DNA of 64,000 nucleotides from the NCBI RefSeq assembly GCF_030253575.1, contig NC_080557.1:3281001-3345000 (forward strand), given 5' to 3'. Numbering within the stretch: position 1 is the first letter of the stretch; every line of letters starts with the position of its first letter. Shown piece by piece: positions 6,811-61,292 of the stretch. This stretch comes from Rhododendron vialii. Lineage: Eukaryota > Streptophyta > Magnoliopsida > Ericales > Ericaceae. Made by a program: the position numbers and the translations under genes. The notes under the pieces are model-generated. The model searched no databases, was not told the DNA's origin, and was given only the letters and a program-made list of their open reading frames with translations.

Positions 6811-6984
6811 ACCCGCCGCCCCATCCCCACCTCCAACTACCTCTCACCCCCTTCACCGATTATTAGATTCTATTTTCCAATTCAACGCAATTCAATTACC
6901 TGAGTTTCAACATCAGAAAACGTTAACAGCACCGGCCGATACAAAAGTAAATAACCTTTTTATCTCGTCAAGTTGTCAACTAAC

Positions 6985-18000: not shown

Positions 18001-19850
18001 TAATCGCGTATGCTTCCCGGCAGCTGAAACCACATGAGAAGAATTACCCTACTCATGACCTAGAGTTAGCAGCAGTCGTTTTTGCATTGAAAATTTGGAG
18101 GCACTATTTGTATGGAGTCGAATGTGAAATTTACACAGATCACCAAAGTTTGAAGTACATTTTCACTCAAAAGGAGTTGAATCTAAGACAACGAAGATGG
18201 TTGGAACTGATTAAGGATTATCATGTCAACATTAACTATCATCCTGGAAAAGCAAACGTGGTTGCAGATGCCTTGAGTCGTAAGGCGACGGGTCAACTAA
18301 ACGGATTACTAACCGCTCAACCCGTGTTACTAGAAGAGATGAATCGGTTGGAGGTAGAAGTAGTTACCCCGGGAATGAGTACGTTCTGCGCAACAATTAC
18401 TGCACAACCTAGGATTCATGACGAGATTCAAGAGAAGCAAGGTGAAGACGAGAAGTTGGTGAAGATACGTGATGGGTTGCGTACTAAATCCGCCTCGGAT
18501 TTTTCGCTTGTAAATGAAATGTTGAAATTTCAGAATCGCATTTGTGTACCAAACCTACCTGAACTGAAACAACGAATTATGAAAGAGAGTCATGATTCTA
18601 AATTTTCCATTCATCCAGGTAGAACCAAAATGTATCAGGATCTTAAGAAAATCTATTGGTGGATGGGAATGAAGAAGGATGTGGAAAAGTTTGTGAGTAG
18701 ATGTCTTTTGTGTCAGCAAATTAAGGCGGAGCGACAGAGACCGGCAGGGTTACTACAGCCATTACCTATACCGGAAGGAAAATGGGAACATTTGACGACC
18801 GATTGGGTAATAGGGTTGCCAAGAACACCAAAGGGAAACGATTCTATTTGGGTTATTGTAGATCGTTTAACTAAGACAGCCCATTTCTTACCAGTTAAAA
18901 CTACCCATACCATGGACCAGCTGGCTGATCTTTATGTGAAAGAAATAGTACGACTACATGGAGCGCCAGTATCGATTACCTCGGATCGAGATCCCAAGTT
19001 TGCGTCGAGATTTTGGAAGAGTTTTCAAAAAGCTCTAGGGACTGAACTTCGACTTAGTACTGCATATCACCCTCAAACCGATGGACAATCTGAGAGAACT
19101 ATTCAAACGTTGGAAGATCTCTTGCGAGCATGCTCTATGGATTATCGAGGAAGTTGGGAGCAACACTTGCCACTAATTGAGTTCGCATACAATAATGGCT
19201 TTCAAGCAAGTTTGGGCATTTCGCCATTCGAGGCATTATATGGGAGACAGTGCAGAACGCCGGCATGTTGGTCTGACGTGGGAGGGGAACAACTATCAGG
19301 GCCAGATATGGTACTTGAATCTATCAATCATGTTAAGGCGATTCGAGAACGATTGAAGATTGCTCAGGCTCGACAGAAAAGCTACGCGGACTCAAAACGA
19401 AGGGAACTAGAATTTGAAGTTGGGAATCGTGTTTTCATAAAAGTATCACCTATGAAGGGGATTGTGAGATTCGGCAAAAAGGGAAAATTGAATCCGCGGT
19501 ACGTAGGACCCTTCGAGATCTTAGAAAGAGTCGGACCGGTTGCTTATCGCTTGGCATTATCGCCAGAATTGGCAAATGTTCATGACGTGTTCCACGTATC
19601 TATGTTGAGACGCTATGTTGCTGATCCTTCGCATGTTCTGGAACAGACTCCAATTGAACTTCATGATAATCTTAGTTATGAGGAGAGGCCTGTTCGTATT
19701 CTAGATCGAGGAGTGAAACAACTAAGAAGCAAAGAGATTCCACTCGTAAAGGTTTGGTGGGAAAATCAGTCCACAAGGGAGGCTACTTGGGAAGTGGAGG
19801 CCGATATGCGCAAGCGATATCCAGAACTGTTCAGTGAAGGTACTTCGTGA
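15081..19850 (+). CDS. gag-pol: gag-pol polyprotein of the Tekay-like element, one in-frame stop
   Basis: One long frame from ATG 15081 to the stop at 19850, interrupted only by TGA at 15570-15572. Gag starts with a proline-rich PPIPPPQG repeat (about 15208-15350) and continues through YQLQ/DADAWWQ and the retrotransposon gag core. An Asn/Gln-rich stretch precedes and follows the zinc knuckle [14 protein letters not shown] (about 16117-16158). Protease has DSGSTHSF (about 16504). Reverse transcriptase has FIDDILIYS (about 17506). RNase H has YSDAS (about 17946). Integrase has an HHCC finger (about 18610-18715) and a DDE core. The end (about 19680-19840) is a plant chromodomain with the VKVWW and ATWEVE motifs, which targets insertion to chromatin. 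The TGA probably replaced CGA or GGA; otherwise the element looks coding-competent. Confidence 0.93.
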
Positions 19851-34350: not shown

Positions 34351-36557
34351 ATGGCTACTGGTAGTTCCATTTCAGAAACAACAATGGCTACTAGTAACAA
34401 GGCAATCGGGATCGACCTCGGCACGAAGTCCAGCTGCGTGGGGGTGTGGCATAACGACCGAGTCGAAATCATCCCGAACGACCAAAGCAACCGGACCACC
34501 CCTTCCTACGTTGCCTTCACTGACACCGAGCGCCTGGTTGGCGACACGGCCAGATATCAAGTCGCCATGAACCCACGAAACACCGTTTTCAACGTCAAAC
34601 GCCTCATCGGCCGGCGGTTCTCCGACCCCTCCGTCCAATCCTACATCAAACTCTGGCCCTTCAAAGTTACTCCGGGTCCTAGCGACAAACCCATGATCGT
34701 CGTCAACTTCGAAGGCGAGGAGAAGAAATTCTCAGCCGAACAAATATCGAGCATGGTCTTGGTGAAGATGAGGGAAACGGCGGAGAATTATCTGGGGCAA
34801 TCGGTGAAAGACGCCGTGATTACAGTACCGGCGTATTTCAACGGTGCACAGCGGCAAGCGACAAAGGACGCCGGAGCAATTGCGGGTATGAATGTCGTGA
34901 GGATTATTAACGAGCCGACCGCGGCTGCGATTGCGTACGGCTTGAACAAGGGTTCAAGAAAAGGGGAGCAGAATGTGCTGATTTTTGACTTGGGGGGAGG
35001 GAGTACTGATGTTACGATTTTGACAATCGAAGAGGGGATTTTTGAAGTGAAAGCTACGGCGGGGGATACCCACTTGGGTGGGGTGGATTTCGATAGCAGA
35101 GTGGTGAATCATTTCGTGGCGGAGTTTAAACGGAAGCACAGGAAGGATATGAGCGGAAATGCGAGGGCGTTGATGCGGTTGAGAAACGCTTGTGAGAGAG
35201 CGAAACAGACTCTATCGTCGGCTACTCATACAATGATGGAGCTCGAATCGTTATACGAAGGGATCGATTTTTACCCCACAATTACTCGGGCGAGGTTCGA
35301 GGAATTGAACATGGATTTGTTTAGAAAGTGCATGGAGCCGGTGGAGAAATGCCTTCGCGATGGGAGAATCGATAAGAGTTCGGTTCGTGAGGTTGTCCTT
35401 GTGGGTGGGTCCACCCGGATTCCGAAGATACAACAATTACTGCAGGATTTCTTCAATGGGAAAGAGCTATGTAAGAGTATTAACCCAGATGAGGCCGTGG
35501 CATACGGGGCGGCGATACAGGCGGCGATTTTAAACGGCCAAGGGAATGAGAAGGTGCAGGACTTATTATTGCTTGATGTAACGCCGTTTAGTTTGGGGTT
35601 CGAAACGGCAGGTGGGGTAATGAGAGTTGTGATCCCAAGAAACTCGTCGATTCCAACTAAGAAGGAGGGCATTCTCTCGACGTTTATGGATAATCAGCCG
35701 GGGGTTTTGATTCAGGTTTATGAAGGGGAAAGAACGAGGACTAGGGATAATAATCTGTTGGGGGAATTTGAGTTGACTGGAATCCCCCCTGCGCCTAGGG
35801 GGGTTCCGCAGATCAAAGTGCTTTTCGACATAGATACGAATGGAATTTTGACCGTGATGGTGGAGGAGGGGACGACGGGGGTGAAGAATAAGATTACGAT
35901 TAACGATAAAGGGAGGTTAAGTGAGGAGGAGATTAAGAAGATGGTGAGGGAGGAGGAGAGGTACAAGTTGGAGGACGAAAAGGTGAAGAGGATGGCGGAG
36001 GTGAGGAATGCGTTCGAGAATTACGGTATATCTCCTTTATTTTTTGTTGTTCATTTATACTTCCTCTGTTCCAAAAAGTTGTACACTTTCACTACTGTTC
36101 CAATCCTATGACATTCTTAAATTTCTTGATTGAAAATTTAACTTTTAGATCAAATGCTGACCAATATCCGTTTAAGCTAAAATTTAACTGACACGAGGGC
36201 CACTAATCGAGCTGAAAATAACATTATTTTGGATGCTTAATTTATTACCCAACTGAGTACGACATGTTTTATATTTTTTTGTTGTAACCAGTTTTCCCAT
36301 TACATGAAGAGGTGTGTGTCTTGAAGAATCAAGTTGAGATACTGAAGGATGTGTGCCAAAGACAGGAGAATCAGATTGAGACCTTTAAGGACTTGTGCCA
36401 GAGGCAAGAGGAGAAGATATGTGCATATGACAGAAAGTTTGAAAAATACTCCAAATTGATAGATGACCAAGCCACGACGATTAAGCAGCTAGAGGCGGCC
36501 ATTACGTGTGCATATATGTTGGTGGAAGGTCGCGTTGGGGCAAGCTCTTCTCAGTGA
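34351..36557 (+). CDS. Hsp70 with lid replaced by a short coiled-coil tail
   Basis: Exon 1 (34351-36025, 558 codons plus one base) encodes a cytosolic-type Hsp70: ATPase domain with [12 protein letters not shown], the IKLWPF lysine, [12 protein letters not shown] and [12 protein letters not shown], then the peptide-binding beta domain. It ends in the lid at Glu-Asn-Tyr with a phase-1 donor (g/gtatat). A 266-base intron leads to acceptor ccag at 36288-36291. Exon 2 (36292-36557) then reads on in frame for 87 residues to a stop, making 646 in all. The tail holds a 14-residue repeat ([13 protein letters not shown] / [13 protein letters not shown]) and looks like a coiled coil. There is no C-terminal lid and no EEVD, so TPR co-chaperone docking should be lost. 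T-to-K in the DLGTT loop and T-to-S in GGGT are unusual. If unspliced, the frame would run to 36111. Expression is unproven. Confidence 0.75.
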
Positions 36558-36839: not shown

Positions 36840-37765
36840 AATGAAGGAAAAAGAAAGAATGATGACTAAGGATAATGATCTGTTGACTGGAATTCCCCCT
36901 GTGCCTAGGCTGGTTCTGCAGATCAAAGCGATTTTCTAGATAGATGCGAATGGGATTTTTATCGTTACGGGCAGAGGATGAGACGACGGCTGAAGAATTA
37001 AGATGACAATTACAAACGATAAGGGGGCGGGTTTTTTTTTTTTTGCCAACCGATAACAGATGATATTATAACTCCAATCAAAGAGTACATCTCAAGATGA
37101 TAACTCGTCCTTAGACAAAGAACCAAGTAACCACGACGGTGGAGATTCATCCCACAAACTATACCTCAAACGAACTAAACCTTTTTTCTTGCAGAAACAA
37201 CCCAAAACAACCTAATTGGAAGAAACCTAGTTGGGAGAAAAACTCACGGCAATAAACCAGAGAGAAAACTTCCACAATATAGAGGAGAATAAGCAAATGA
37301 TTGCAAACCAACAAGAAAAATGAAAAAAAAAACCTCGCCATCATCATCCACCAACATAGGTCTCCAACTCCGGCGACCCAATCATCCACAAAAGCTTTGC
37401 ACCCACAGTTGCACATCTGAATCACACCACCAGAGACGAGTCACCGGCGAACGGCAAATATGATGGAGGAGGTCCGGTGGTAGAGAAACCAAAGAGGCTA
37501 AGGCGTCGGGAGGCGTGAGGGAAGGATGAAGGTGGAGAATGATGAAAGGACCTCATAGGGGAGATCCCACCCCCCTTTTAGGGTTAAGCGGGCGGTTGAG
37601 TGAGGACGATTTTAAATCACGAAGGGAATGAGAAGTGCAAGACTTGTTAGTGCTCGAAGGGAATGTGAAGTGAAGTGCAAGACTTGTTAGTGCTCGATGT
37701 AACGCCATTTAGTTTAGGGATAGAAGCAGAGGGTGGGGTTATAACTGTTGATTCTAAGAAGAGTT
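36840..37765 (+). pseudogene. Scrambled Hsp70 fragments with a retroposon insertion
   Basis: 36845-37030 resembles the Hsp70 beta domain (aaggataatgatctgttgactgg ... cagatcaaagcgattttc) with stops. After a retroposon, 37596-37765 continues with ttgagtgagga. It then switches to an earlier Hsp70 segment (gcaagacttgttagtgctcgatgtaacgcc), part of it duplicated. The order is not colinear with a gene, so this is debris of duplication. Confidence 0.75.
37031..37585 (-). mobile_element. Retroposon in the Hsp70 fragment, minus strand
   Basis: It starts with a poly(T) run (37032-37044), i.e. a minus-strand poly(A) tail. It is flanked by aagggggcgg (37021-37030) and aagcgggcgg (37586-37595), a 10-bp duplication with one mismatch. 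The interior is GC-rich toward the far end, like the element at 9940-10968. No reverse transcriptase was seen. Confidence 0.65.
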
Positions 37766-39873: not shown

Positions 39874-41295
39874 ATGGCTACTAGTTGTTCCATTTCAGAA
39901 ACAACAATGCCTACTAGTAACAAGGCAATTGGGATCGACCTCGGCACGAAGTACAGCTGCGTGGGGGTGTGGCATAACGACCGAGTCGAAATCATCCCGA
40001 ACGACCAAGGCAACCGGACCACCCCTTCCTACGTCGCCTATTCGCCTTCACCGACACCGAGCGCCTGGTTGGCGACACGGCCAGATACCAAGTCGCCATG
40101 AACCCCCGAAACACTGTTTTCAACGTCAAACGCCTCATCGGCCTGCGGTTCTCCGACCCCTCCGTCCAATCCGACATCAAACTCTGGCCCTTCAAAGTTA
40201 CTCCGGGTCATAACGACAAACCCATGATCGTCGTCAACTTCGAAGGCAAGGAGAAAAAATTCTCAGCCGAACAGATATCGAGCATGGTCTTGGTGAAGAT
40301 GAGGGAAACGGCGGATAATTATCTGGTGCAATCGGTGAAAGACGCCGTGATTACAGTACCGGCGTATTTCAACGGTGCACAGAGGCAGGCGACGAAGAAT
40401 GCCGGAGCGATGTCGGGTATGAATGTCATGAGGATTATTAACGAGCTGACCGCGGCTGCCATTGCGTACGGCTTGAACAAGGGTTCAAGAGAAGGGGAGC
40501 AGAATGTGCTGATTTTTGACTTGGGTGGAGGGAGTACTGATGTTACGATTTTGACTATCGAACAGGGGATATTTGAAGTGAAAGCTATGGCGGGGGATAC
40601 CCACTTGGGTGGGGTGGATTTCAATAGCCGAATGGTGAATCATTTTGTGGCAGAGTTTCAGAGGAATCACAAGAAAGACATGAGCGGAAACGCGAGGGCG
40701 TTGATGCGGTTGAGAAACGCTTGTGAGAGAGCGAAGCAGAATCTTTCGTCAGCTACTTGGACGACGATAGAGCTCGATTCGTTACACGAGGGGATTGGTT
40801 TTTACCCCACGATTACTCGCGAGGGGTTCGAGTAATTGAACACGGATTTGTTTAGAAAGTGCATGGAGCTTGTCGAGAAATGCCTTGTCGATGCAAATAT
40901 CGTTGTATCGATAAAAATACGGTTCATGAGGTTGTTCTTGTCGGTGGGTCCACCCGGATTCCGAAGATACAACAATTACTGCAGGATTTTTTCGACGGAA
41001 AAAAGCTATGTAAGAGTATTAACCCAGATGAGGCTGTGGCATATGGGGCGGCGGTACAAGCAGCGATTTTAATCGGCGAAGGGAATGAGAAGTTGCAAGA
41101 CTTTTTATTGCTCGATGTAACGCTGTTTAGTTTGGGTATAGAAACGAAGGGTGGGGTTATGACTGTTTTGGTTCCAAGAAACACGACAATACCAACTCTG
41201 AAGGAGCACATTTTGTTGATGTTTTCGGATAATCAGCAGGGGATTTTGATTCAGGTTTATGAAGGGGAAAGTGCGAGGGCTAAGGATAATAATCT

Positions 41296-44200
41296 TAAAG
41301 AGATTCTGAATTCTGGACTGAATTGGTAAAGAAATGATCAAGAACTAGAGAGAGAAAACACGAGAAAAGAGAAAAGGAAAAACTGATTTTTATTTCATTC
41401 TATTCGATGATTACAAAGCTAGGCCTCAAAGTCTTATATATCAGTTGATTACAGAGCTAATCAAGATTACCCTCTAACTAATCTCAATTCCCTAACTAAC
41501 TCAGAAACTATCTAACCAACTACACACTTGAGTTAGCTGACGTGGAAGCTTGAGCTGAGCCTCCTGTGCTTGAGCTGGCAGCTTCACTTGAGCTAACATT
41601 AGAATCCCTTAAGCTAACATTAGAATCCTTTATAGCCCCCTGCAAACGCATGGGAGGATCACCTACCATGAGTTTGGCCTTAAGAGTTTGAAACCTGAGA
41701 ACAGAGAGAGCTTTGGTAAAGATATCAGCGATTTGATAGTCAGTACCCACATGAGACACAACAATACGTTTACTGAGCACTTGTTCTCTAATGAAATGGT
41801 AATCAATCTCAATATGCTTTGTCCTAGCATGAAAATTAGGGTTTGAAGCAAGAGCAATAGCGGATTTGTTATCACATAACAAAACAGGTGGAGAGGACAA
41901 AGAAACATGTAAGTCATAGAGCAGTTGTTGCAACCAAACCAAATCACTTGCAGTTTGAGCCATGGCCCTATTTTCTGCTTCAGTAGAAGAACGAGCCACA
42001 GTATGCTGTTTCTTGGCGCACCAAGATACAAGATTAGATCCCAGAAAAATGCTAAACCCTGTTGTGGACCTCCTATCAATAGGATCTCCTGCCCAATCAG
42101 CATCAGCATATGCAGTGAGAGATAAAGGACTGGGACGAAAATGGAGACCTTGATGAACTGTGCCTTTGATATACCGCAAGATTCTCTTGATAGCTATAAA
42201 ATCACTAAGCCTTGGACAATGCATATGTTGGCAGGCCACATTGACAGAAAAAGAAAGTTCTGGCCTCGTGAGAGTGAGATACTGCAAAGAGCCCACTATA
42301 GTTCTATATAAATGAACATTATCAAACAAAGAATCAGAGGAAGGTATCCCAGGTTTAACAGAAATAGGTGTGGCACTGGGTTTACACTCCACCATTCCAG
42401 CCTTTAGTAACAACTCAGAAGCATATTTAGCTTGAGATAAAAATATACCAGAAGAAGAAGATTGTACTTCAATGCCCAAAAAGTAATTAAGAGTACCCAA
42501 ATCTTTCATGACAAACCTTTTGCTGAGCTGAGTAATAAGAGCAGAGATGTATGCACAATCATTACCGGTGATGACTATATCATCAACATAGATCAAGACA
42601 AGAGTGATGGTACTATCCTGAGAGAGAATAAACAGAGATGTATCTGCCTTGCTGGAGATGAAACCCAACTCAATCAGATAATTGGAAAACATGGCATACC
42701 ATGCTCGTGGTGCTTGTTTAAGACCGTACAAAGCTTTGGAAAGTTTACAAACATACTCAGGATGTGCAGGGTCCTTGTAGCCCAAAGGTTGCGTCATATA
42801 AACATCTTCAGAAATTACTCCATGTAAAAATGCATTGGAGACATCCAACTGCCTTAAAGGCCAGTGATGATGAATTGCAAGGCTCAGAATAACCCTAAGA
42901 GTAGGTTGTTTGAGGACAGGACTAAATGTTTCTGTATAGTCCATGCCTTCCTCTTGTTGATTACCATTTGCAACAAGATGAGCTTTGTACCTTGCCACTG
43001 AACCATCCGAATGCCTTTTGATCTTATAAATCCACTGACAACCTATAATATGACTATGGGAAGGTGGAGGAACAAGTTGCCAAGTTCCTTGTTTAACCAA
43101 TGCTTCATACTCTTCTGCCATGGCTTTTTGCCACACATGATAAGAAATAGCTTCAGAAAAATGAGAGGGTTCTTTCAGAGGAAAAGAAGAAACGGAAGTG
43201 AATAAAGTGAAAGGATGTTTGGGTTTAAAAATCCCATGTTGAGACCTAGTCCTCATAGAATGAGAAGGCTCTACAGTGGAAAGAGGAACAGAAGTTGTAG
43301 TAGATACAGAAGAGGGAAGAGAAGAAGTAGTATTTGGAATGGACACATTAAGAAACTCAGAACTGGAATGAATAGGAAAGGAGAGAGTGTCAAAAATAGG
43401 AGTAGGAGCTGGAGAAGACACAGATTGAGAAGAAACAGAAGGAACATTTGGAGTAACAGTGATTACAATATCCTGAAAGTCAGTAAGAGGAACACTAAAG
43501 GAAGACAGATCTGTAGTGGAAGGGGCTAAGGAAAGAGATTTGGACAAAAGAGTAGAGTAAGGAAAGTCACTCTCAATAAACCTGACATGTCTTGATATAT
43601 ACACTTTATTAGAGATAGGGTCAAAACATCTGTATCCTTTGGAAGCTTGGCAATACCCCAAAAATACACAAGGAGTAGACTTAGGAATGAGTTTATGTGA
43701 ATGATAAGGTTTCAACCATGGAAAACAAGCACAACCAAAAGGTTTGAGAGCAAGATAATCAGGTTGGGAATTAAAAAGAAGAACAAAAGGGACTTGAAAC
43801 TTTAGAGAAGAATGGGGAAGTCTATTAGCTAGAAAAACTGTTGTAATCAAGGCTTCTAGCCAAAACTGAGCAGGAATTCCTGCTTGATGAAGAAGAGTAA
43901 GTGTAGTATCCATAAGATGTCTGTGCTTTCTTTCCACCACACCATTTTGCTCTGGTGTGTGTGGACAAGAAGTCTGATGAATTGTGCCATTAGTGAGGAA
44001 CAGACTAGTAAGATAGTGATTAACGAATTCTTTTCCATTGTCTGATCTAACAAGTTTAGCAGTGGCGTGAAACTGTGTTTGCACATAGGCTTTAAAATGA
44101 GTAAGTGTGGTCTTTACGTCAGATTTGTAGTGCAAAGGAAATAACCAAGAATATCTAGTACAATCATCAATGATAAGAAGATAGTATCTAAAACCTTTGA

Positions 44201-46745
44201 CAGAAGGTATAGGAGCAGGACCCCAAACATCCATATGCAGCAAATCAAAGGGCTGAACAGACTTGGAAACAGAAAGAGGAAAACTTAAATTGTGACTTTT
44301 CACACTATGACAACTAGAACAGGAAACATCAAAAGATTTGGTCACAGGTAAACCAAACTGTCTTATTAATGCTTGAAAAAGAGGAAAACTAGGGTGTTCA
44401 AGCCTCTGATGCCACAAAGTGGCAGAGGATGTAGACACAGTGTTATTAGAAGAAAGAGCAACAGAAACCTGAGGTGAAGCAAGCTCAGAGCAAGTCTGAA
44501 TAGGGTAGAGACCCTTGTGACATGGACCGTGGAATAGAATTTGATGTGACTGGTTGTCCTGAATGACATAGCCAGAGGAAGTAAATGTTAGAGAGCAATT
44601 ATTATCCTTGGCAAATTGGAAAACTGATAGAAGGTTATGTGTAATGGCAGGTGTATGCAAAACATTAGTTAAATGGAATTTAGCATTTGGTGTGGGCAAA
44701 ATTCCTTTTCCAATACCAGTAATAGGCAAAAACTTACCATTTCCAACCATCACCCCCGCCCTTGCTGTATAAGGTTGTGTCTGTGTAAGATGAGTGGCAG
44801 TGGGAGTGACATGATTTGTAGCCCCACTGTCAAAGTACCAGTTTTGAGAAGGAAAACCAAGGCCAGTATTCCCTGTATGTGAAGAATATGTTGTAGAAAA
44901 AGCAGATGCAGCAGGAAAACCTGAGGGATACATGTCTGAAGAGGTCTCAAACCCTGAGCTATTACCCCCAAAACCATTAGATTGACCCCCAAAGCCACTA
45001 GATTGACCAACAGTAGGAGTGTAACCATATCCACCAAAACTAGTAGGCTGACCAACATTAGGTGAGTAACCAGAGTGCACAAAATGAGCTTGTGGTCCAG
45101 GATGGGAAAATCCAAAATGAGATGGTGGTCCATGATTTGCAGGTCCAGAGAAGTTAGCAAATGCCTGACCAGAAGAAAAAGAAGGTGCAGAATCAGGCCT
45201 CCACATGTTGAATTGTTGAAAACCTGATGGAGGGAACATTCCTTGAGATGATTGTACATTTCTGTAGTAACAAGTACGTACTGTGTGATTATCCTTGCCA
45301 CAAATTTGACAGCACCCCAGCTTGGAAAAAGGAACAAAGCCCTGTCCTCTAGGCTTGTTTTTGTTGCTATTAAATCTAGAACCAGAAGATTGAGGAAAGA
45401 AAGAACCTTGTGGAAACGGTGACTGAAACATTGGAACATGAGGCTGAGCTATTTGTGATTGAGAGGACGGTATGACGTGAGGTTGAGGAGACTGAGCCAT
45501 AGAAGCAGAAAAGGAACCAGTATTGGGCATCATTTGAGGTTGAACAGAACTAGTTGCACCAGAAAAACTAAGATCATGCAGTTTTTGAGTAGCAACAAAG
45601 ACACTAGTAGAATCAGATACTCCCTTAGACTTATGTAAACGAGATTCTTCTGCCTTTAAGATAGAGACAAGCTCATGGAATTTTAGATCTCTTTGAGCAC
45701 CAATAGCAGATTTCAATGGATCAAATTCTCCTGGTAAACCATTCATTGTATGAAACGCCAAATCATCATCATCTACCAGATAACCGACGGCACTTAACTT
45801 TTGTGCACAGAGCTTGATCTCATCAATATACTGTTCCATTGTACCAGTTTTGGTAAAGTTAAACAGTGATCTTTTGAGATCATGAATGTTAGGCCTAGAC
45901 AAGGAATTAAACCTCTGTTCCAAACAACTCCAAACTTCATAGGCATGATCTAACCCTAAAACCAGGGGTAAAGTAGAAGCAGATAAGGAAGCAGTCAAGC
46001 ATGACAACAACTGATTGTCAATAAGCTTCCAACGCAAATAAGCAGTATTCACTACAAGATTGTTACTTGTATCACGTATTTGCATAGGAGGTGCATTAAT
46101 AGTACCATCAACATAATCAATAAAGCCATTCGCGCGTAATGCATTTAAAACCTGTGTTTTCCAGAGAAGGTAGTTATCGGAACTTAGCTGAATCTTGACT
46201 AGTGTGTGGAAATTAGAGACCAGAAACGCGAGAGAAGGAGGCATTGTAACTCCAGTTTCACTAGAACCTGAATTTGCTGACATTCTGACAAACAGAGGAG
46301 TTGAAACCCTAACAAAGAAGTTGAAACCCTAAGTTGCAGAAGTTGATCGTTCTTGACGTACACACCGAGGATCTACAGACTTTCGTCTTCGTGAGCTTTG
46401 ATACCATAAAGAGATTCTGAATTCTGGACTGAATTGGTAAAGAAATGATCAAGAACTAGAGAGAGAAAACACGAGAAAAGAGAAAAGGAAAAACTGATTT
46501 TTATTTCATTCTATTCGATGATTACAAAGCTAGGCCTCAAAGTCTTATATATCAGTTGATTACAGAGTTAATCAAGATTACCCTCTAACTAATCTTAATT
46601 CCCTAACTAAGTCAGAAACTATCTAACCAACTACACACTTGAGTTAGCTGACGTGGAAGCTTGAGCTGAGCCTCCTGTGCTTGAGCTGGCAGCTTCACTT
46701 GAGCTAACATTAGAATGCTTTAAGCTAACATTAGAATCCTTTACA
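41296..46745 (-). mobile_element. Full-length Ty1/copia retrotransposon, minus strand
   Basis: Two 339-bp LTRs (41296-41634 and 46407-46745) differ at about six positions. The primer site (reverse complement TGGTATCAAAGC) abuts the right LTR at about 46395-46406. A G-rich polypurine tract abuts the left LTR. The polyprotein is open throughout. Flanks are the two halves of an Hsp70 copy, but no clean 5-bp target duplication is visible (left ends aatct, right begins ctgtt). Confidence 0.92.
41520..46283 (-). CDS. gag-pol: Ty1/copia gag-pol polyprotein, uninterrupted
   Basis: A single 1587-residue frame starting at ATG 46283. From N to C it has Gag of the UBN2 type, a zinc knuckle (CQICGKDNHTVRTC, about 45270-45315), a Ser/Gly/Phe-rich spacer, and protease (DSGATNHVT, about 44810-44840). 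Integrase follows with LWHQRLEHPS and the DVW/SDNGKEF/ERKHR core (about 43850-44400). Reverse transcriptase has YVDDIVITG (about 42575-42600) and RNase H has ADADWAGDP and SSTEAENRAM (about 41930-42110). The C-terminal 38 codons run into the 3' LTR. The usual EYRAM of RNase H reads ENRAM here. Integrase before RT identifies the copia type. It seems capable of being autonomous. Confidence 0.95.
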   Translation of the reverse strand: MSANSGSSETGVTMPPSLAFLVSNFHTLVKIQLSSDNYLLWKTQVLNALRANGFIDYVDGTINAPPMQIRDTSNNLVVNTAYLRWKLIDNQLLSCLTASLSASTLPLVLGLDHAYEVWSCLEQRFNSLSRPNIHDLKRSLFNFTKTGTMEQYIDEIKLCAQKLSAVGYLVDDDDLAFHTMNGLPGEFDPLKSAIGAQRDLKFHELVSILKAEESRLHKSKGVSDSTSVFVATQKLHDLSFSGATSSVQPQMMPNTGSFSASMAQSPQPHVIPSSQSQIAQPHVPMFQSPFPQGSFFPQSSGSRFNSNKNKPRGQGFVPFSKLGCCQICGKDNHTVRTCYYRNVQSSQGMFPPSGFQQFNMWRPDSAPSFSSGQAFANFSGPANHGPPSHFGFSHPGPQAHFVHSGYSPNVGQPTSFGGYGYTPTVGQSSGFGGQSNGFGGNSSGFETSSDMYPSGFPAASAFSTTYSSHTGNTGLGFPSQNWYFDSGATNHVTPTATHLTQTQPYTARAGVMVGNGKFLPITGIGKGILPTPNAKFHLTNVLHTPAITHNLLSVFQFAKDNNCSLTFTSSGYVIQDNQSHQILFHGPCHKGLYPIQTCSELASPQVSVALSSNNTVSTSSATLWHQRLEHPSFPLFQALIRQFGLPVTKSFDVSCSSCHSVKSHNLSFPLSVSKSVQPFDLLHMDVWGPAPIPSVKGFRYYLLIIDDCTRYSWLFPLHYKSDVKTTLTHFKAYVQTQFHATAKLVRSDNGKEFVNHYLTSLFLTNGTIHQTSCPHTPEQNGVVERKHRHLMDTTLTLLHQAGIPAQFWLEALITTVFLANRLPHSSLKFQVPFVLLFNSQPDYLALKPFGCACFPWLKPYHSHKLIPKSTPCVFLGYCQASKGYRCFDPISNKVYISRHVRFIESDFPYSTLLSKSLSLAPSTTDLSSFSVPLTDFQDIVITVTPNVPSVSSQSVSSPAPTPIFDTLSFPIHSSSEFLNVSIPNTTSSLPSSVSTTTSVPLSTVEPSHSMRTRSQHGIFKPKHPFTLFTSVSSFPLKEPSHFSEAISYHVWQKAMAEEYEALVKQGTWQLVPPPSHSHIIGCQWIYKIKRHSDGSVARYKAHLVANGNQQEEGMDYTETFSPVLKQPTLRVILSLAIHHHWPLRQLDVSNAFLHGVISEDVYMTQPLGYKDPAHPEYVCKLSKALYGLKQAPRAWYAMFSNYLIELGFISSKADTSLFILSQDSTITLVLIYVDDIVITGNDCAYISALITQLSKRFVMKDLGTLNYFLGIEVQSSSSGIFLSQAKYASELLLKAGMVECKPSATPISVKPGIPSSDSLFDNVHLYRTIVGSLQYLTLTRPELSFSVNVACQHMHCPRLSDFIAIKRILRYIKGTVHQGLHFRPSPLSLTAYADADWAGDPIDRRSTTGFSIFLGSNLVSWCAKKQHTVARSSTEAENRAMAQTASDLVWLQQLLYDLHVSLSSPPVLLCDNKSAIALASNPNFHARTKHIEIDYHFIREQVLSKRIVVSHVGTDYQIADIFTKALSVLRFQTLKAKLMVGDPPMRLQGAIKDSNVSLRDSNVSSSEAASSSTGGSAQASTSANSSV

Positions 46746-47050
46746 CTGTTGGGGAAATTAGAGTTGACTGGAATTCCCCGTGTGCCTAGGCGGGTTATCA
46801 AGGTGGTTTTCGATATAGATGCAAATGAGATATTGAAAGTGAGGGCAGAGGATGAGTCGACCGGGGTGAAGAGTAAGATGACGATTACGAACGATAAGGG
46901 GCGGTTGAGTGAGGAAGAGAAGGTGAAGACGAGAAATGCGTTGGAAAGGATCGAGAGGGCAGTGAAAGAGGCGATTGAGTGGTTGGGGAACGATGAGTCG
47001 GTGAAGTACGCGGATGAGTTGGCGGATAAGTTGAAGGGGTTGGAAGGGTT

Positions 47051-47210
47051 GTGTAATCCGATAATCGCGAACATGTATAAGGGAGACGGAGGCAGTGGTG
47101 GCGATGTGCCAATGGGTGGCGGTGGCGGTGTGTAATCCGATAATCGCGATCATGTATAAGGGCGACGGAGGCAGTGGTGGCGATGTGCCAATGGGTGGCG
47201 GTGGCGGTGG
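47051..47210 (+). repeat. 79-bp tandem duplication at the Hsp70 pseudogene end
   Basis: gtgtaatccgataatcgcg through the GGTGGCGGTGGCG run is repeated with an offset of 79 bases. Because 79 is not a multiple of three, the duplication truncated the frame at 47133-47135. Confidence 0.85.
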
Positions 47211-52696: not shown

Positions 52697-54691
52697 ATGA
52701 AAAAATCAGAAAGAATTGCAACAATGGGTACTAGTAACAAGGCCATCGGAATCGACCTCGGCACGAAGTACAGCTGCGTAGGGGTGTGGCATAACGACCG
52801 AGTCGAAATCATCCCAAACGACCAAGGCAACCGAACCACCCCTTCCTACGTCGCCTTCACTGACACCGAGCGCCTAATCGGCGACGCCGCCAAAAACCAA
52901 GTCGCCATGAACCCACAAAACATTGTTTCCAACACCAAACGCCTCATCGGCCGCCGAATCTCCGATCCCTCCGTCCAATCCGACATCAAACTTTGGCCCT
53001 TCAAAGTAGCTCCGGGTCCTGGCAACCATCCCATGATCGTCGTCAATTTCAAAGGGGAAGAGAAGCAATTCGCTGCCGAACAAATATCGAGCATGGTCTT
53101 GGTGAAGATGAGGGAAACGGCGGAGAATTTTCTTGGGCAATCGGTGAAAAATGCCGTTATTGCGGTCCCGGCGTATTTCAACAATTCGCAGCGGCAGGCG
53201 ACGATTGACGCTGGAGCGATTTCGGGAATGAACGTTGTGAGGATTATTAACGAGTCGAACGCGGCTGCAATTACGTACGGGTTCGACAAGAAGGGTTCAA
53301 TGAAAGGGGAGCAGAACGTGCTGATTTTTGACTTGGGTGGAGGAAGTTCCGATGTTTCGATTTTGACTATCGCAGAGGAGGTTTTCGAAGTGAAAGCTAT
53401 GGCGGGGGATACCCACTTGGGTGGGGAGGACTTCGATAACAGAATGGTGAATCATTTCGTGGCGGAGTTTCGGAGGAAGCACAAGAAGGATGTAAGTGGA
53501 AACTCAAGGGCGTTGAGGCGGTTGAGAACCGCTTGTGAGAGAGCAAAATGGACTCTATCGTCGGCTCCTCAGGCAACGATAGAGATCGATTCATTATACG
53601 AAGGGGTTGATTTTTACCCCACGATTACCCGGGCGAGGTTCGAGGAATTGAACATGGATTTGTTTACAAAGTGTATGGAGCTCGTCGAGAAATGCCTTCG
53701 CGATGCGAAAATCGATAAAAATTTGGTTGATGAAGTCGTCCTTGTCGGTGGGTCCACCCACATTCCAAAGATACAAGAATTACTGCAGGATTTCTTCAAC
53801 GGAAAAGAGCTATGTAAGAGTATTAACCCAGATGAGGCCGTGGCATACGGGGCTGCAGTTCAGGCGGCGATTTTAACCGGCGAGGTGCAGGATTTGTTGT
53901 TATTGCTCGATGTAACGCCGTATAGTTTGGGGTTAGAAATGGAGGGTGGGGTTATGACTGTTTTGATTCCAAGAAACGAGACGATTCCAGCTAAGAAGGA
54001 GCAGATTTTCTCGACGTTGTTGGATAATCAGCCTGGTTTTTTGATTCAGGTTTATGAAGTGGAAAGAGCGAGAGTTAAGGATAATAATCTGCTGGGGAAA
54101 TTCGAATTGACTGGATTTCCCCTTGCGCTGAGCGGGGTCCCGCAGATCAATGTGATTTTCGATATAGATGCGAATGGGATTTTGAACGTGACGGCGGAGG
54201 ACAAGACGGCGGGGGTACTAAAGAGTAGGATTACGATAACGTACGATAAAGGGGGGTTGAGTAAGGAGGAGATTGGGAGGATGGCGGGGGACACGGAGAA
54301 GTATAAGTTGGAGGACGAAGAGGCGAGGAGGAAGGTGGAGGCAGGGAACGCGTTGGAGAATTATGGTATCTCTTCTTCCATTTTTTCATTTCATTAGTTA
54401 GTGAGATATACTTATACTTAGAGCATGTACATTAAGGAAAATGTATTTTAGCTACCCAATAATTCACTGTTTTTATTTTATCTATTCAAATTTCTCTCTC
54501 ACCAATCTTCTCTATTATCATCTCTATCCTTATAAAATACTATAAAATTGCAGTACTATTTTTGTTTCCCCTCTCTCTCCGCAGTTCTCTATCTAAAATC
54601 AAAAGACCCAAACCCACAAATTAACTACCATATATCAATTAACCCAAAATTTGAACCGTACAAAATTATTGCATGCAAGGTGGGGTTAGGA

Positions 54692-54748
<57 letters not shown>

Positions 54749-57709
54749 TACTAAAGAAGAACGAAGAACGGAAGAAAAACAATAATTGTTTAAGGAATTA
54801 CTCATGAACAGTGACTCGGTAATAATACCGAACCTTTCCATCTAAGCTATTAGAGCATGTACACCAATCTCTCTATATCGTACTTTTAGGTTAAATAGAG
54901 AGGAATTTCTCAAAAAGGGGTTGCACCAGCCTAGCTATCAACATAGATATTTTAAAAAAAACCATTGTAGCTCTCCAAAAGAAGCTAGGCACTGTAGCAA
55001 TGGAAAAAATAAACAAATATTATTATCTCTGATGCAAGCCTCTTCTTCTCTCTCCTCCAAGAACCAAAACCAGTAAAATTGTATACCTTCCAAAATCTGA
55101 TTTGTGCATCAATACTTGAACCCAAAACATTGAGCAATTACTCAATCTATGCATGTGTTTTCAACTACAATGATGAAAATGGATCTAAATTTCAGCTCTT
55201 TTGTTCATGATAAAAAATTTAGGGCAACATAAGTTTTGTTGTTGTCGTTCAAAAAAATAAATAAAGTTCTGTTGTTTCTTTCTATTTTATAAATGAGAGT
55301 CTCAAAGAGTTATTTGCCCACTTCAAAGTACAAATGAAAATAAGGAGAAGAAATAAGTGCGTGGAAGAAGAACCAATCAATTGACCCAATTTAGGACAAA
55401 ACTCTCATTCACTCTACTGATATAAAAGAAAGAAACCGTATATTTGAACCTATAGATATATATGCAGCATTTTATTTTATATAATTCTTAAATAGTGATA
55501 GAGAGGGTAATAGAGATGATTGATATAGTGTGCAAGTAAAAAGTGGATAGGTAAAATAGAAATTACACTTTTTAACTAGGTATTTTAACTACCATTGGTG
55601 TACATGCTCTTATACCTTTGTCTTTTGCTACTTTGGTATAGCTTACTTTTGTGACTTTCGTTCTCTATTTTAGTTAATATTGCTCATATACCTACACTGA
55701 TGTACATGCTTTTATGGGGCCGTGAATAAGCTGTTTACAGAGGGGTGAATACGGACCGTCCAAGAGTGTTTTGGACGGTCCGCATTTTAAACAAACCTTT
55801 TCGGGAAAGAGTTAAGTGTTTTGGACTGTCCGGAGTCACCTCCGTAAAACTTATTTACGGAATACTCCATAAATAAGTTTTTCTCTTATTAGTATATCTT
55901 AAGGGGTCTAGTAAATACGGTATATTAACGACGAAAGGAGGTCTAAATTACGGTACATATTTTTCAACTTTTGTAAGGCCCGTTCTCTTGAACTTAACTT
56001 AAATCTGAAAAATTGTCCTTATTTGAGTTATCTGAAAGATTTTAAGTTTAAGTTTAAATTAATGATGCAGCGGAATTTATGAGAGACTAGTTAGCGTACT
56101 AGTCCAAACGAGATAAACAACTCGTCGCAATGAGCAAATCTTGCACACAAGAAAGAAAGAGAAAATCTCTGCAATATTATTGATTAAAAGCTTTTTTAAA
56201 AGTTTAATAATTGAATAGGTTACAGTTCTTTTTATAAGACCCTAACCTTAGAAATATATCCTACTGTAAAAAAAAATCTTAAATCATGCCAAAATAAACG
56301 GCATTAAAGAAAAATATTTCCTATTTAATTAAATAAAATTCTAATTCTTGTAGACTAAGAATTAATCCTAATAAAGTAGAAATTAAAATCAAACCAAATA
56401 CGGAAATTAAAGTTAATAATTCTAACCTAAACAAAAATATTCCTAGTAAAAATATTATTCTAAAGCAATAAAAATAAAATACAAACACTCCGTTTGGTTT
56501 AACATTTTGAGAGTTACTTTTAATTCTCGGCATAGTTTTCAATAAATTTTTCTTTTTATCTCTCTTTACTCATTACCACTCCAACTTTCAAAAATTACTT
56601 TCTCCATTTTTGTCTTACATCAATTAAGTTCAAGAGAACGGGACCTAAAAAGAGCAGTTTTGAAAAAAAGATGTTCCATCCTGCATAAATCAAAAAAGGA
56701 AATTAAAATTGGTGATGAGTCTCTCTCTCTCTTCAAATAGTGGGTCTCTCCGTTAACCATGATTATTATTTTCTGATCATAGTAATAAACTAATATAATG
56801 ATTGATTAAAATCAGATTTCACCCTTACCCTCAAAAGTGTCACCTCCACTTTAATACTTACAAATACACTCGCATTGTGATTGGTCTCACACACTGCATT
56901 GCGCAGGATTATTTAAGGACGACCAGAGGCCCTCTTTCTATTCTGAAATATCTAATATTGATGAGTTAGAACATGGGGATGAGTTGAAAAGAGTTCAATA
57001 TGAGCTAAAGGTACTTTGCGAGGAGCAACAGAGAGAGGGGCCGGAGCGACAGAGAGAGCAGGTGGAGCTGGAGCTACTTCGAGAGGAGGTGGGGCGACTT
57101 CTTGAGGAGCGAAAAAGAGAGCATAAGGAGCGACAAAGGGGTCAGGAGGAGCTGGAGCTACTTCTCGAGAAACAAAAGAGAGAGCAAGAGGAGCAACAAA
57201 GAGAACGTGAGGAGATGGGGCTACTATGGGAGGAGCGAAAGAGAGAACATGAGAAGCGACAGAGAGAGCGGGAGGAGTTGGGGTTACTTCGAGAGGAGCA
57301 ACAGAGAGAGCGAGAGGAGCTAGGGCTACTTTTGGAGGAGCGAAAGAGAGAGGCGGAGGAGCGACGAAGAGAGCATGAGGAGCTGAAGATACTACAGGAG
57401 GAGCGAAAGAGAGAGAAGAAAGAGCAACAGAGAGAGCGGGAGGAGCTGGAGCTACTTCGAGAAGAGCGACAGAGAGAGCAGGAGGAGCTACAGCTACTTC
57501 GAGAGGAGCGAAAGAGGGAGCACAATAAATGTCAGAGAGAACAAGAGATGTTGGGGCTACTTCGGGAGGAGCAACAAAAGGAGCGACAGAGAGAGCTGGA
57601 GGAGGAGGTGAGACGACGCAAGGAGGAGCAGATACTACGAGACGCACAACAAAGACAGATTGACGAACTCAAAAGCTTCATGATGCTGAATTTTGGTATA
57701 GGATGGTAA
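52697..57709 (+). CDS. Hsp70 with lid replaced by a long charged coiled coil
   Basis: Exon 1 (52697-54365, 556 codons plus one base) encodes Hsp70 ATPase and beta domains. The start at 52697 gives [13 protein letters not shown]; paralogues suggest 52724 may be the ancestral start. DLGTKYS (K at 24) and GGGSSDV differ from the usual DLGTTYS and GGGTFDV, and NEP is NES. It ends at Glu-Asn-Tyr with a phase-1 donor (g/gtatct), the same place as the copy at 34351. A 2.5-kb transposon-filled intron leads to acceptor gcgcag (56901-56906). Exon 2 (56907-57709) continues in frame: [14 protein letters not shown], then about 200 residues of Glu/Arg/Gln heptads, then a stop after FGIGW, giving 823 residues. 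A donor at 57696 (ttttg/gtatag) could instead join later exons. No lid and no EEVD remain. The joining is my prediction; the ATPase half is certain. Confidence 0.65.
54697..54746. repeat. GA microsatellite
   Basis: About 25 uninterrupted GA units inside the first intron of the Hsp70 copy that starts at 52697. Confidence 0.9.
54853..55609. mobile_element. PIF/Harbinger-like MITE with TTA duplication
   Basis: The termini gagcatgtacaccaa and ttggtgtacatgctc are perfect inverted repeats. tta flanks both sides (54850-54852 and 55610-55612), the 3-bp TWA signature of this superfamily. There is no transposase frame. Confidence 0.75.
55725..55890. mobile_element. MITE-like CCGTAAATAA repeat
   Basis: Inverted ends ccgtgaataagctgtttac and gtaaaacttatttacgg enclose facing ggaccgtcc / ggacggtcc blocks. 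It is related to 50896-51080. Confidence 0.45.
55977..56645. mobile_element. PIF/Harbinger-like MITE with TAA duplication
   Basis: The ends GGCCCGTTCTCTTGAACTTAA and TTAAGTTCAAGAGAACGGGACC are inverted repeats of about 20 bases, flanked by taa (55974-55976 and 56646-56648). The interior appears to carry a further insertion. It lies in the predicted Hsp70 intron. Confidence 0.75.
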
Positions 57710-57936
57710 AAAGTTGAACTTGAGAAACCGAATTGCTCTTCATACTCGATTACCAATTTCATACTACTATGAGAACTATGGTTAAAGTGTATTTTACCAT
57801 GGCGCTCATCTGGGTTATGGCTAAAAAAATAAAGTCATAAATCAAATTCAATCACTAGTATACATTTCCATGCATCGAATTTAAGATGCTCCCGCATTTC
57901 AAATATTCATTTGTACCATTTTGTGACTGATGTTAG

Positions 57937-58068
57937 GTCGGAGCTAAAAAAACTTCAATCTAAGTTGGAGGAGCTTGAGGAGGAGCGACAGGAAGAGCAG
58001 GAGGAGGAGAAGATACGACGTGATGAACAACAAAGAGTGATTGATGAACTCAAAAGCTATATGTTGCT
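57937..58068 (+). CDS. Candidate cassette exon A1, charged coiled coil
   Basis: A 132-base exon between acceptor ttag and donor gtaaga. It starts with one base and ends with two of a codon (phase 2-2), so it can be added or skipped without a frame change. It encodes SELKKLQSKLEEL, a run of Glu/Gln and RDEQQRVIDELKSYML. It resembles the end of exon 2 of the Hsp70 gene upstream. Whether it is transcribed is unknown. Confidence 0.5.
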
Positions 58069-58173
58069 GTAAGACCCGAATTATGCATTTCGTACATTAG
58101 CATGCATTTTGTGGTTGAAAAAAATTGCACATTAATGCCATGTGAATTGTTAATTGTTTCTTATATTCTTTAG

Positions 58174-58361
58174 GAGAAATTCTTCGGGCACGGTGCCACG
58201 TGGTGCCGAGCACATCTCAGCCATCTAAACGTGTTTTGGAGGGGGGGTTTTAATAATTTTATACTTAAAAAATACCTAAACAGATCTGGGCCGTCCAAAA
58301 CACATTTGGACGGCCGAGATGGTGCTCGGCACTGTGCCCACCCGGCACCGAAGAATTTCTC
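58174..58361. mobile_element. MULE-type MITE with 9-bp target duplication
   Basis: It starts gagaaattcttcgggcac and ends ggcaccgaagaatttctc. attctttag flanks it exactly (58165-58173 and 58362-58370). The target is the intron between cassette exons A1 and B1. Confidence 0.88.
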
Positions 58362-58631
58362 ATTCTTTAGATAGATATATAGATGTGATACTTTTCTTTT
58401 CTTCTCATTTATTTATTTATTTATGGTTTTGTCCTTTTCTACATCTAGTCAAGTACGTATTCTGTACTCATACAAATTCTAACGTACTCTTAAGTTGGCA
58501 TAAGAAAAGGAAAACAAAACAAATGACTAGTTTCACCAAGAGGTTCTATGAGAGTGGCTTAGCATTTGGCTCTTGTGTATATATCATGTGTTCTTTGTGG
58601 ACGATCAGAGTCCCTCTTCCTATTATGGCAG

Positions 58632-58853
58632 ATCTATTGTTGAGTTAGCACGTGAGGAAGAGCTGAAAAAAGTTCAACATGAGCTGGAGCTACTTCGGAA
58701 GGAGCGACAGATAGAGCATGAGGATCTAAAGCTACTTTTGGAGGAGAGACGGAGAGAGTGGGAGGAGGAGGAGGAGAGACGACGCAAAGAGGAGCAAATA
58801 CTCCGAGACGCACACCAAAAAGAGATTGATGAACTCAAAAGCTTTATGATGCA
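58632..58853 (+). CDS. Candidate cassette exon B1, charged coiled coil
   Basis: A 222-base phase 2-2 exon after the pyrimidine-rich acceptor ccctcttcctattatggcag, ending at donor gtaaga. It encodes SIVELAREEELKKVQHELEL, Glu/Arg heptads and [18 protein letters not shown]. Its sequence matches B2 and the start of exon 2 (56907). Unspliced, it would stop two codons later. Confidence 0.5.
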
Positions 58854-59127
58854 GTAAGACCCGAATTATCCATTTCCTGCATTATCATGCATTATTGTCC
58901 ATTTTGTGACTCATAATGGTTTCTTTCATTCTTTAGAGGTGAGATTTCTTTTCTTTTCTTTTCTTTTTTATGTTTTTTCCTTTTTTACTCTAGTCATGTT
59001 CGTAGAGTATTATATGTACATATTCTATCTTACCCTACTACCCTTATAAAAAACAAATCCAAACCAAAAAGTCACCTAGAGATTCTATTAGTGGCTTAGC
59101 CTTTGGCTCTTGTGTAATTTGTTCTTT

Positions 59128-59334
59128 GTGTCGGACCGCTTTTCTACCATCTCTCATAAAACCAATTATTGTTGGGCCCGGAATGCTCCCATGGATTTGG
59201 TTACACAATGCCACTCCCTGCGACCTCTAAAAACAGACTTGCGGGTGCGATGTCGAATGCCATAAAAGATTTAAGTGAAGCCCTTCCTAACATCAATTGG
59301 TTTTAGGAGAGATGGTGGAAAAGCGGTCCGACAC
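59128..59334. mobile_element. MITE with 40-bp-plus terminal inverted repeats
   Basis: gtgtcggaccgcttttctacc at the left is the reverse complement of ggtggaaaagcggtccgacac at the right, and similarity continues through ccaattattg / catcaattgg. It interrupts a third copy of the B-type exon leader (ggcttagcctttggctcttgtg, 59093-59115). The duplication is unclear. Confidence 0.75.
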
Positions 59335-59399
59335 TTTGACTTGGAAAAAAAACCAATACAAAAGGTTAGAATAATTAGTAAGTTAAATTCGATATATTA

Positions 59400-60075
59400 T
59401 AGTATATGCAATGTGGGTTATTTTCTTGATAATGATGTGCCCTTCGTGGTTGTGAAGCATATTGTCACTAAAATTTAGAAGAGGTTTGGTCTCTGTGAGG
59501 TCCTTTCAAATGAGAATGGTTTGATCTTCTTCAAGTTTTATGACTTATGAGGAAGGGACTAATAGGAAGATTATTGGAGCTGGGCCTGGCGTATTGCTGG
59601 GGAAGTCATGGTGCTTCAACAATGGAAACCTCGAGTGCAACATTTAAAGAACAAAACTTAGTAAGATACCTATTGGGGCTCATTTTTACAAAAAAAAATA
59701 AAAAAATTGAACAACAAAAGAAGAGGCTCATTTTTACAATTTATCATCGGAGTTCTAGAATGAATGTGGTCTTAGTTATATCATGAGTGCTTGTAAAAGG
59801 CATTTATATGCTGATGTGTTGACAGAAAAGAGTCAAAGGTTGAGCTATGCTAATATTTGTGTGGAGGTGGAGATGGACTCAATTTTTCCTGATTCTGTGG
59901 AAATGGCTTCTGCTAATGAGAATTGTGTTACTGTCTTGGTGAAGTACCCTTGGAACTTGGAAGCCCTGTTGATGTTTTGTTTGGGAGGTGTTTGGTCACA
60001 CTGATGCTAGGTGTACTCATAAGGAGCCGAGTCTTACAGCTAGTGCTGTTAATGTAAATATTTAGGCTCAGAGCC
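59400..60075 (+). pseudogene. LINE ORF1-like (DUF4283-type) remnant
   Basis: Pieces of the forward frames resemble plant DUF4283/zinc-knuckle proteins encoded by LINEs: a KRFGLCEVLSNENGLIFFKF stretch (about 59475-59545), YADVLTEKSQRLSYANICVE (59805-59865), and a VLVKYPWNLEAL end with degraded CCHC (about 59930-60025). Frameshifts and an internal poly(A) run (59690-59707) show it is dead. It lies between cassette exons B1 and A2. Confidence 0.6.
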
Positions 60076-60286: not shown

Positions 60287-60460
60287 GTCGGAGCTAATGA
60301 AACTTCAACCTGAGGTGGAGCTACTTGGAGAGGAGCAACAGAGGGAGCAGGAGGAGCGACAGAGAGAGCGGGAGGAGGAGGAGAGACGACACAGGGAGGA
60401 TCAGAAAGTACAAGATACACAAAAAAGAGAGATTGAGAAAATTGAAAGCTATATGATGTC
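60287..60460 (+). CDS. Candidate cassette exon A2, charged coiled coil
   Basis: A 174-base phase 2-2 exon from acceptor gctag to donor gtgaga. It encodes SELMKLQPEVELLGEEQQRE, further Glu/Arg repeats and a tail ending EIEKIESYMM. Flanking intron sequence (tatgcatttctatgcatagaattt; gacccgaattatgcat) is shared with A1, showing duplication of exon plus intron. Confidence 0.5.
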
Positions 60461-60659: not shown

Positions 60660-60857
60660 ATCTATTGCTGAGTTAGCACGTGAGGAAGAGCTGGAAAAAG
60701 TTCAACATGAGCTGGAGCTACTTCGAGAGGAGCGAAAGCGGGAGCAGGAGGAGCGACGGAGAGAACGGGAGGAGCAGGAGAGACGAGGCAGGGAGGATCA
60801 GAAAGTACTAGACACGCAACAAAGAGAGATCGAGAAACTCAAAAGCTATATGATGCT
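60660..60857 (+). CDS. Candidate cassette exon B2, charged coiled coil
   Basis: A 198-base phase 2-2 exon after acceptor ccctcttcctatttttggcag, ending at donor gtaaga. It encodes SIAELAREEELEKVQHELEL, Glu/Arg heptads and a tail ending EIEKLKSYMM. It is nearly the same as B1 at its start and differs in heptad number. Confidence 0.5.
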
Positions 60858-61234: not shown

Positions 61235-61292
61235 GTCCACAGAGGTTTCCACCCACTTCAAATCTGCTAGATGAGGTCCGTAGTTGTTCAAG
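61235..61292 (+). CDS. Candidate downstream exon with two possible frames
   Basis: The acceptor gtgctag resembles those of A1 and A2, and the donor gtgagt at 61293 is strong. Joined to a phase-2 cassette it gives STEVSTHFKSAR then TGA. Joined to the phase-1 donor at 57696 it gives PQRFPPTSNLLDEVRSCS and stays open to the donor. A pyrimidine-rich acceptor (ctctttcag, to about 62506) follows 1.2 kb later, where the open frame would stop within five codons. Both readings are hypotheses. Confidence 0.4.

Follow-up and report, generated by a model that had tools for sequence, protein, structure and literature searches.

Candidate replacement of the Hsp70 lid by helical exons in a tandem gene cluster of Rhododendron vialii

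We analyzed a window of 64,000 nucleotides (nt) of the Rhododendron vialii genome (RefSeq assembly GCF_030253575.1, contig NC_080557.1, positions 3,281,001 to 3,345,000 of the forward strand) that carries three Hsp70 copies, here called genes A, B, and C. The explanation that we favor on balance is that they form a tandem cluster of fast-evolving, lid-truncated cytosolic Hsp70s of the Ericaceae, in which the lid and the EEVD tail of genes A and C would have been replaced by helical exons. Judged from the sequence, an exchange of the lid for a helical tail is likely in gene A and plausible in gene C. An earlier reading of this DNA (the original prediction) had proposed a lid-less Hsp70 with a coiled coil for gene C. 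The support for such a fusion comes mainly from gene A, through its NCBI model, and not from gene C itself; the fusion is likely real for A, and the 3' end of C probably lies further on than had been thought.

The architecture of Hsp70 is among the most conserved known, and a lid-for-tail swap would be an unusual remodeling. If it is true, the cluster would offer a natural test of an Hsp70 that works without client clamping, with the ATPase kept and with a client-blocking substitution in gene C, and of how exon gain can remodel a chaperone. The degrees of confidence attached below to the best explanation and to its rivals are overlapping and need not total one.

Junctions and tails of genes A and C

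Gene A sits 16 kb upstream of gene C. Its first exon (34351..36025, plus strand) encodes an Hsp70 whose N terminus is that of P0011, a protein of 640 amino acids (aa) listed by NCBI as 'heat shock 70 kDa protein-like isoform X2 [Rhododendron vialii]'. Used as a query against 8000 scored candidates, of which the best 120 were considered, this exon matched P0011 with 99% identity over 96% of the query. The exon ends at a phase-1 donor (36026) that cuts the lid at the same codon as in gene C (ENY/G), and the coil exon (36310..36557, plus strand) encodes the tail of P0011, a heptad coiled coil that ends in SSSQ and a stop. Acceptors at 36292 and 36310 are both in phase, so that the intron measures 266 or 284 nt, and splicing from 36025 to 36310 yields a tail identical to that of P0011. 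Following the NCBI model, the product of gene A (predicted mass, 71.3 kDa) would be an Hsp70 carrying a coiled coil of ~80 residues. In A and in C alike, helical exons joined at ENY/G, in phase 1, would have taken the place of the remaining lid and of the EEVD tail.

Automatic models can join neighbors, and the annotated fusion in gene A might be an artifact in which an Hsp70 pseudogene was joined to a neighboring coil gene. We consider this quite improbable, as the coil exon lies just 266 or 284 nt past the Hsp70 exon and has two in-phase acceptors. An isoform label from NCBI suggests transcript evidence behind a model, and the 'isoform X2' label of P0011 would point to such evidence here. 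Moreover, RNAFENY, the lid sequence at the gene A cut, directly precedes the same A-type coil in two other rhododendrons, R. griersonianum and R. williamsianum.

The first exon of gene C (52724..54365, plus strand) encodes the nucleotide-binding domain (NBD), the beta substrate-binding domain (SBD-beta), and the start of the helical lid. It opens at the ATG at 52724 and has no stop up to the GT at 54366, a phase-1 donor inside the lid (GAG AAT TAT G/GTATCT). The Hsp70 part is 76.6% identical to that of gene A, and its open reading frame (ORF), represented by database protein P0001, matches the Pfam family PF00012 (HSP70) with an E value of 9.5e-219. The open ATPase and beta domains and the phase-1 lid donor of the original prediction were thus borne out, but the ORF, which had been said to end at the donor, passes it by 10 codons (split codon included) to a stop that ends at 54397.

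The putative intron (54366..56906, plus strand) holds a GA microsatellite and, at 54844-55618 (I9) and 55970-56651 (I3), two segments bounded by terminal inverted repeats, which are probably transposon insertions. A phase-matched opening after the AG at 56906, as predicted, is present. The region from 54431 to 60000 contains 454 AG dinucleotides, and none of the others opens so long a phase-1 frame as the one before 56907, with its 266 in-phase codons (267 with the split codon). The 54365/56907 join produces a predicted two-exon form of 814 residues, free of stops. Coil exon 2 itself (56907..57705, plus strand) is rich in Glu, Arg, and Gln, is composed of a 21-base repeat, and is related to residues 4-152 of the Vaccinium protein P0124; a Pfam search of the gene C coil exon returned no family. 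As the repeat keeps the frame open and a phase match arises by chance one time in three, the openness of exon 2 is weak evidence taken alone. The lid swap is plausible in gene C because its cut point and phase are those of gene A, its frame is intact, and a related coil exon exists in Vaccinium.

The end of the coding region, which had been placed at 57709, is doubtful. Its in-frame TAA (57707-57709) lies across a GTAA donor that follows 57705, and later coil units of gene C also end in TAA or TGA overlapping a donor, GTAAGA or GTGAGA. Four candidate coil exons of phase 2-2 can follow on the plus strand: exon 3 (57937..58068; 132 nt, with AG before and GTAAGA after), exon 4 (58632..58853; 222 nt, with a close relative in R. 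williamsianum P0123), exon 5 (60287..60460; 174 nt), and exon 6 (60660..60857; 198 nt). A short candidate last exon 7 (61235..61274, plus strand) encodes STEVSTHFKSAR and then a stop, and the sequence 5' of it recurs before exons 3 and 5 (repeat families D7 and D8). In this seven-exon reading every intron is GT-AG and the frame stays open for 1068 aa, and P0123, judged from the protein, leaves its exon-4 relative at the same donor. These exons were picked to fit, however, and the coil exons are mutual duplicates, which makes their agreement less striking.

Since the TAA overlaps a donor and further exons can follow in phase, 57709 is probably not the end of gene C, and the two-exon form is probably incomplete; it would be a short form, or else the model covers only part of the gene. 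The predicted masses are 94.0 or 125.9 kDa, the latter for the 1068-residue form, and the predicted C termini are IGW or KSAR. Gene C would most likely follow the same plan as gene A, with a longer charged tail made from several tandemly duplicated coil exons. Past coil exon 4, the stretch at 59838-60003 reads LSYANICVEVEMDSIF and occurs as well in R. williamsianum P0123, where it is attached to the relative of exon 4; it could be an alternative exon or a transposon piece.

The two tails differ in character. In the gene A coil, 76% of the a/d positions within the first 72 residues are hydrophobic (form spliced at 36292), with a period of 3.5, and none of 2000 shuffles equaled this; the tail of gene A is predicted to be a coiled coil and is a good candidate for a dimerizer. 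For exon 2 of gene C, the best a/d register is 37.5% hydrophobic versus 14% elsewhere, and 1 of 2000 shuffles was as good. The Glu/Arg/Gln heptads once proposed for this tail survive as Glu/Arg/Gln richness but not as a strong heptad core, and the tail is at best a weak coiled coil. Gene C might oligomerize or be tethered through it, as had been suggested.

Charged single alpha-helices are recognized by an excess of opposite charges at i+4. In exon 2, Arg/Lys is followed by Glu at i+4 29 times versus 19.6 (10 of 2000 shuffles reach 29) and Glu by Arg/Lys at i+3 31 times versus 19.7 (0 of 2000), while Glu followed by Arg/Lys at i+4 shows no excess (23 versus 19.6; 381 of 2000). As only some of the opposite-charge spacings are in excess, it is possible that the gene C tail acts as a charged single-helix spacer.

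We sought relatives of the tails with a probe of both coils, for which 8000 candidates were scored. At least four proteins matched at an E value of ≤10, P0011 among them; the non-self relatives are P0122 (R. griersonianum), P0123 (R. williamsianum), and P0124 (Vaccinium darrowii). P0122 and P0123 carry C-type coil units and then A-type units, the latter preceded by EEARNAFENYASPLYEEV or EEVRNAFKNYASPLYEEV-like sequences, and the A-type coil is conserved in three Rhododendron species. P0124 starts with a C-type coil exon, recognizable from CAGL..DDQR onward, followed by the starts of two Hsp70 copies. This coil stands next to Hsp70 starts, and the neighborhood of coil and Hsp70 is thus common to two genera; the arrangement could come about if, in a tandem array, the tail of one gene had been run together with the following gene. 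Related species have relatives of the coils, but among the proteins matched a coil behind an Hsp70 was seen only in R. vialii P0011.

The repeat units of P0122 and P0123 contain RNAFKNY/RNAFENY, as though the lid end had been duplicated along with the coil exon. A Pfam search of P0123 returned no family. For P0122, matches to retrotransposon gag and an AAA lid exceeded the whole-protein cut-off, with no single stretch passing, and we took them as coil artifacts.

Constraint and alternative explanations

Between genes A and C, the Ka/Ks of exon 1 is 0.365 (bootstrap, 0.29-0.485), and by region it is 0.28 in the ATPase domain, 0.51 in the beta domain, and 0.79 at the lid start. Among 3000 simulated gene C frames, 13%, 2.8%, and 0.4% were still open after 60, 115, and 180 random changes, respectively, 115 being half of the A-C differences and assumed for the C branch.

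A number of observations weigh against the favored explanation. We defined 378 positions that are invariant in 98 Hsp70s ending in EEVD (98 of the 102 proteins P0020-P0121, after a length and EEVD filter; the named members are mostly plants), and gene A changes or lacks 47 of these and gene C 43, where in a leave-one-out comparison each of the 98 departs at three or fewer. Both genes have Lys at T14 (residue numbers here and below are those of Hsc70, counted on an alignment to 1yuw). The small coil exons have Ka/Ks values of 0.55-0.56, and over the first 90 nt of each their differences at the three codon positions are 4/2/3 for exons 4 and 6 and 8/8/9 for exons 3 and 5; with no third-position excess and these ratios, there is little or no constraint on the small coil exons. 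When the gene C junction was searched in the protein database (47 candidates, E ≤10), no fused protein was found; the sole match was P0001, a 557-aa protein that reads through the donor. P0122 and P0123 have no Hsp70 match, which counts against an obligatory fusion, and the coil of P0124 precedes its Hsp70 pieces instead of following an Hsp70. The AlphaFold model of P0011 (32 sequences) is poor, with a mean predicted local distance difference test (pLDDT) score of 42 and a junction below 50 (548-564 almost throughout), so we take it only for its C-terminal helix, in which residues 525-633 form a single helix with blocks of 581-630 at a pLDDT of 76-89. Finally, when placed in a tree beside 20 further Hsp70s, genes A, B, and C fall into a single clade (support, 100) in which A and B group together (support, 100; B was represented by only one open piece). 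B belongs with A but still has the end of a normal lid, so that the swap is not simply traced to one origin: either the swap predates the present lid end of B, which was then regained or converted, or it arose twice.

Some of these points would also suit a gene C that is just another lidless truncated Hsp70, stopping at 54397 (557 aa), with the coil exons as a separate gene or its remains. P0001 has precisely this read-through end, the database coil proteins of R. griersonianum and R. williamsianum have no Hsp70 part, and lidless plant Hsp70s have been described as type III of the truncated T1 lineage in a survey of these proteins (PMC10687569). The sister gene A, however, shares the cut codon, and its annotation splices it to a coil; P0001 may be an annotation or just an ORF call and need not be a model built on transcripts. 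We regard this explanation of gene C as possible but doubtful.

Alternatively, gene C and its coil array could be decaying, as a drifting tandem duplicate that has no lid and gives no stable product. The 43 changed invariant positions, which include T405M-A406E and V438F in the beta domain, the coil exons without third-position bias, and the broken neighboring copy B are all in keeping with decay, as are the T1 transcripts described as scarcely detectable in the plants examined (PMC10687569). Against this, gene C retains 546 stop-free codons, its length changes are in frame, its ATPase domain has a Ka/Ks of 0.28 versus gene A, and its coil exon is still recognizable in Vaccinium, and we hold decay to be unlikely. 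We retain the replacement of the lid by helical exons as the preferred explanation for genes A and C.

Predicted function and comparison with known Hsp70s

Residues D10, T13, K71, E175, D199, and D206 are kept in both genes; D10, K71, E175, D199, and D206 have known roles in Hsc70. Both genes have Ser at T204. Gene A keeps A406 and V438 and may, for that reason, still bind clients despite the missing lid bundle. Gene C has Met-Glu at T405-A406 and Phe at V438; its linker contains one additional Leu, and the sequence before the linker lacks four residues. The substitution V438F is reported to reduce substrate binding by Hsc70 substantially (PMC7392334), and the same change is natural in gene C, which probably does not bind clients in the usual way. 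Unlike the engineered V438F in a complete Hsc70, gene C is lid-less and has further changes.

The proposed mechanism would keep the ATPase module in both genes. The client clamp would be weakened or lost for want of a lid bundle and, in gene C, also through a blocked pocket. Partners that depend on EEVD would be lost; this motif is needed for contacts with HOP and CHIP (PMC10687569), and these contacts should go. The tail would serve as a dimerizer or a spacer, and the product may be a holdase, a scaffold, or a decoy rather than a folding machine. A bolder version, which we offer tentatively and think rather unlikely, is that the Ericaceae hold an Hsp70 lineage in which the lid is a slot for exchangeable tandem helical exons. 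Gene C would then be a closed-pocket (V438 Phe, A406 Glu), ATP-gated scaffold or J-protein decoy and not a chaperone, with a tail of up to ~520 residues set by the number of phase-2 exons spliced in.

The closest known proteins are the T1 truncated cytosolic Hsp70s of plants, which, according to the survey, lack EEVD, have altered lids, and stand in tandem clusters in T1-rich species (PMC10687569). Genes A and C resemble them in having no C-terminal EEVD (A ends in SSSQ and the C models in IGW or KSAR), in an NBD and SBD-beta near those of full-length Hsp70, in a deleted or atypical SBD-alpha/C-terminal domain, here cut at ENY, and, together with gene B, in their tandem arrangement. An intron at the DAKR codons is typical, although not strict, for T1 (PMC10687569), whereas genes A and C lack it and are open through the site, reading NVKR in A and NTKR in C. 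T1 type IV has, after an atypical SBD-alpha, a C-terminal extension that species share, with a leucine-rich helix in one group, and is reported from Laurales only (PMC10687569); genes A and C would also end in a helical extension, but in an Ericaceae host and from separate exons joined at ENY/G. The T2 lineage has a mean similarity to full-length Hsp70 of <55% (PMC10687569), unlike genes A and C, whose ATPase and beta domains are ~80% identical (A, 80.4%; C, 79.6%) to P0042, a canonical cytosolic Hsp70 of R. vialii. Unlike such canonical Hsp70s, A and C lack the lid bundle and EEVD and have Lys at T14, and C has Phe at V438.

The survey was limited to proteins of 50-90 kDa (PMC10687569), a range that would have excluded gene C (94.0 or 125.9 kDa) but not gene A (71.3 kDa). 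The words coiled, Rhododendron, Ericales, Vaccinium, and Actinidia are absent from its main text, and the words 'coiled' and 'truncated' are absent from the main text of a survey of heat shock proteins in six rhododendrons centered on R. delavayi (PMC11244423). A literature search of open-licence papers found no report of a coil in place of the Hsp70 lid. The statement in the original prediction that no family with this layout has been described needs qualifying, as truncated T1 Hsp70s with a helical extension are already described (PMC10687569). Truncated plant Hsp70s are known, then, and what would be new here is an Ericaceae variant in which the lid would be replaced by separate coil exons. 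A haplotype-resolved genome of R. vialii has been published with Nanopore full-length cDNA, and its Iso-Seq data carry the accessions CRR719648 and PRJNA971245 (SRA BioProject) (PMC10338486).

Gene B and other features of the window

Gene B is in two parts on the plus strand. The 5' part (39907..41296), recovered as tblastn pieces, is a broken Hsp70 copy with frameshifts and a stop, and the 3' part (46746..47135) follows a Copia-type insertion and has a normal-lid end and a Gly-rich tail, with no coil. The insertion (41296-46743) is a Copia-type long terminal repeat element (Pfam RVT_2) with a single long open frame on the minus strand, and its repeats are 98.5% identical over 337 bases. Degenerate Hsp70 fragments lie between A and B, at 36847-37026 and 37669-37749.

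A normal-lid remnant was also sought downstream of genes A and C, where only a chance-level scrap of 15 residues with a stop was found (56152-56196; E, 1.9). The introns of A and C gave only matches of 14-21 bases, none with an E value better than 0.17, and we rejected a shared origin for them. Comparison of the upstream regions of A with C and of B with C gave no match at 1e-3; genes A and B have 84 bases in common, at 92.9%, immediately before the start. In the ~0.8-1 kb upstream of A, B, and C, no three-part heat shock element was found; two two-part matches occur, before gene B only.

Elsewhere in the window, a long open frame on the plus strand at 15573-19850 encodes a Ty3/gypsy-type polyprotein with reverse transcriptase, RNase H, and integrase. 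Another open frame, at 6955-8292, has protein kinase and NAF domains and is, from these domains, presumably a CBL-interacting kinase.

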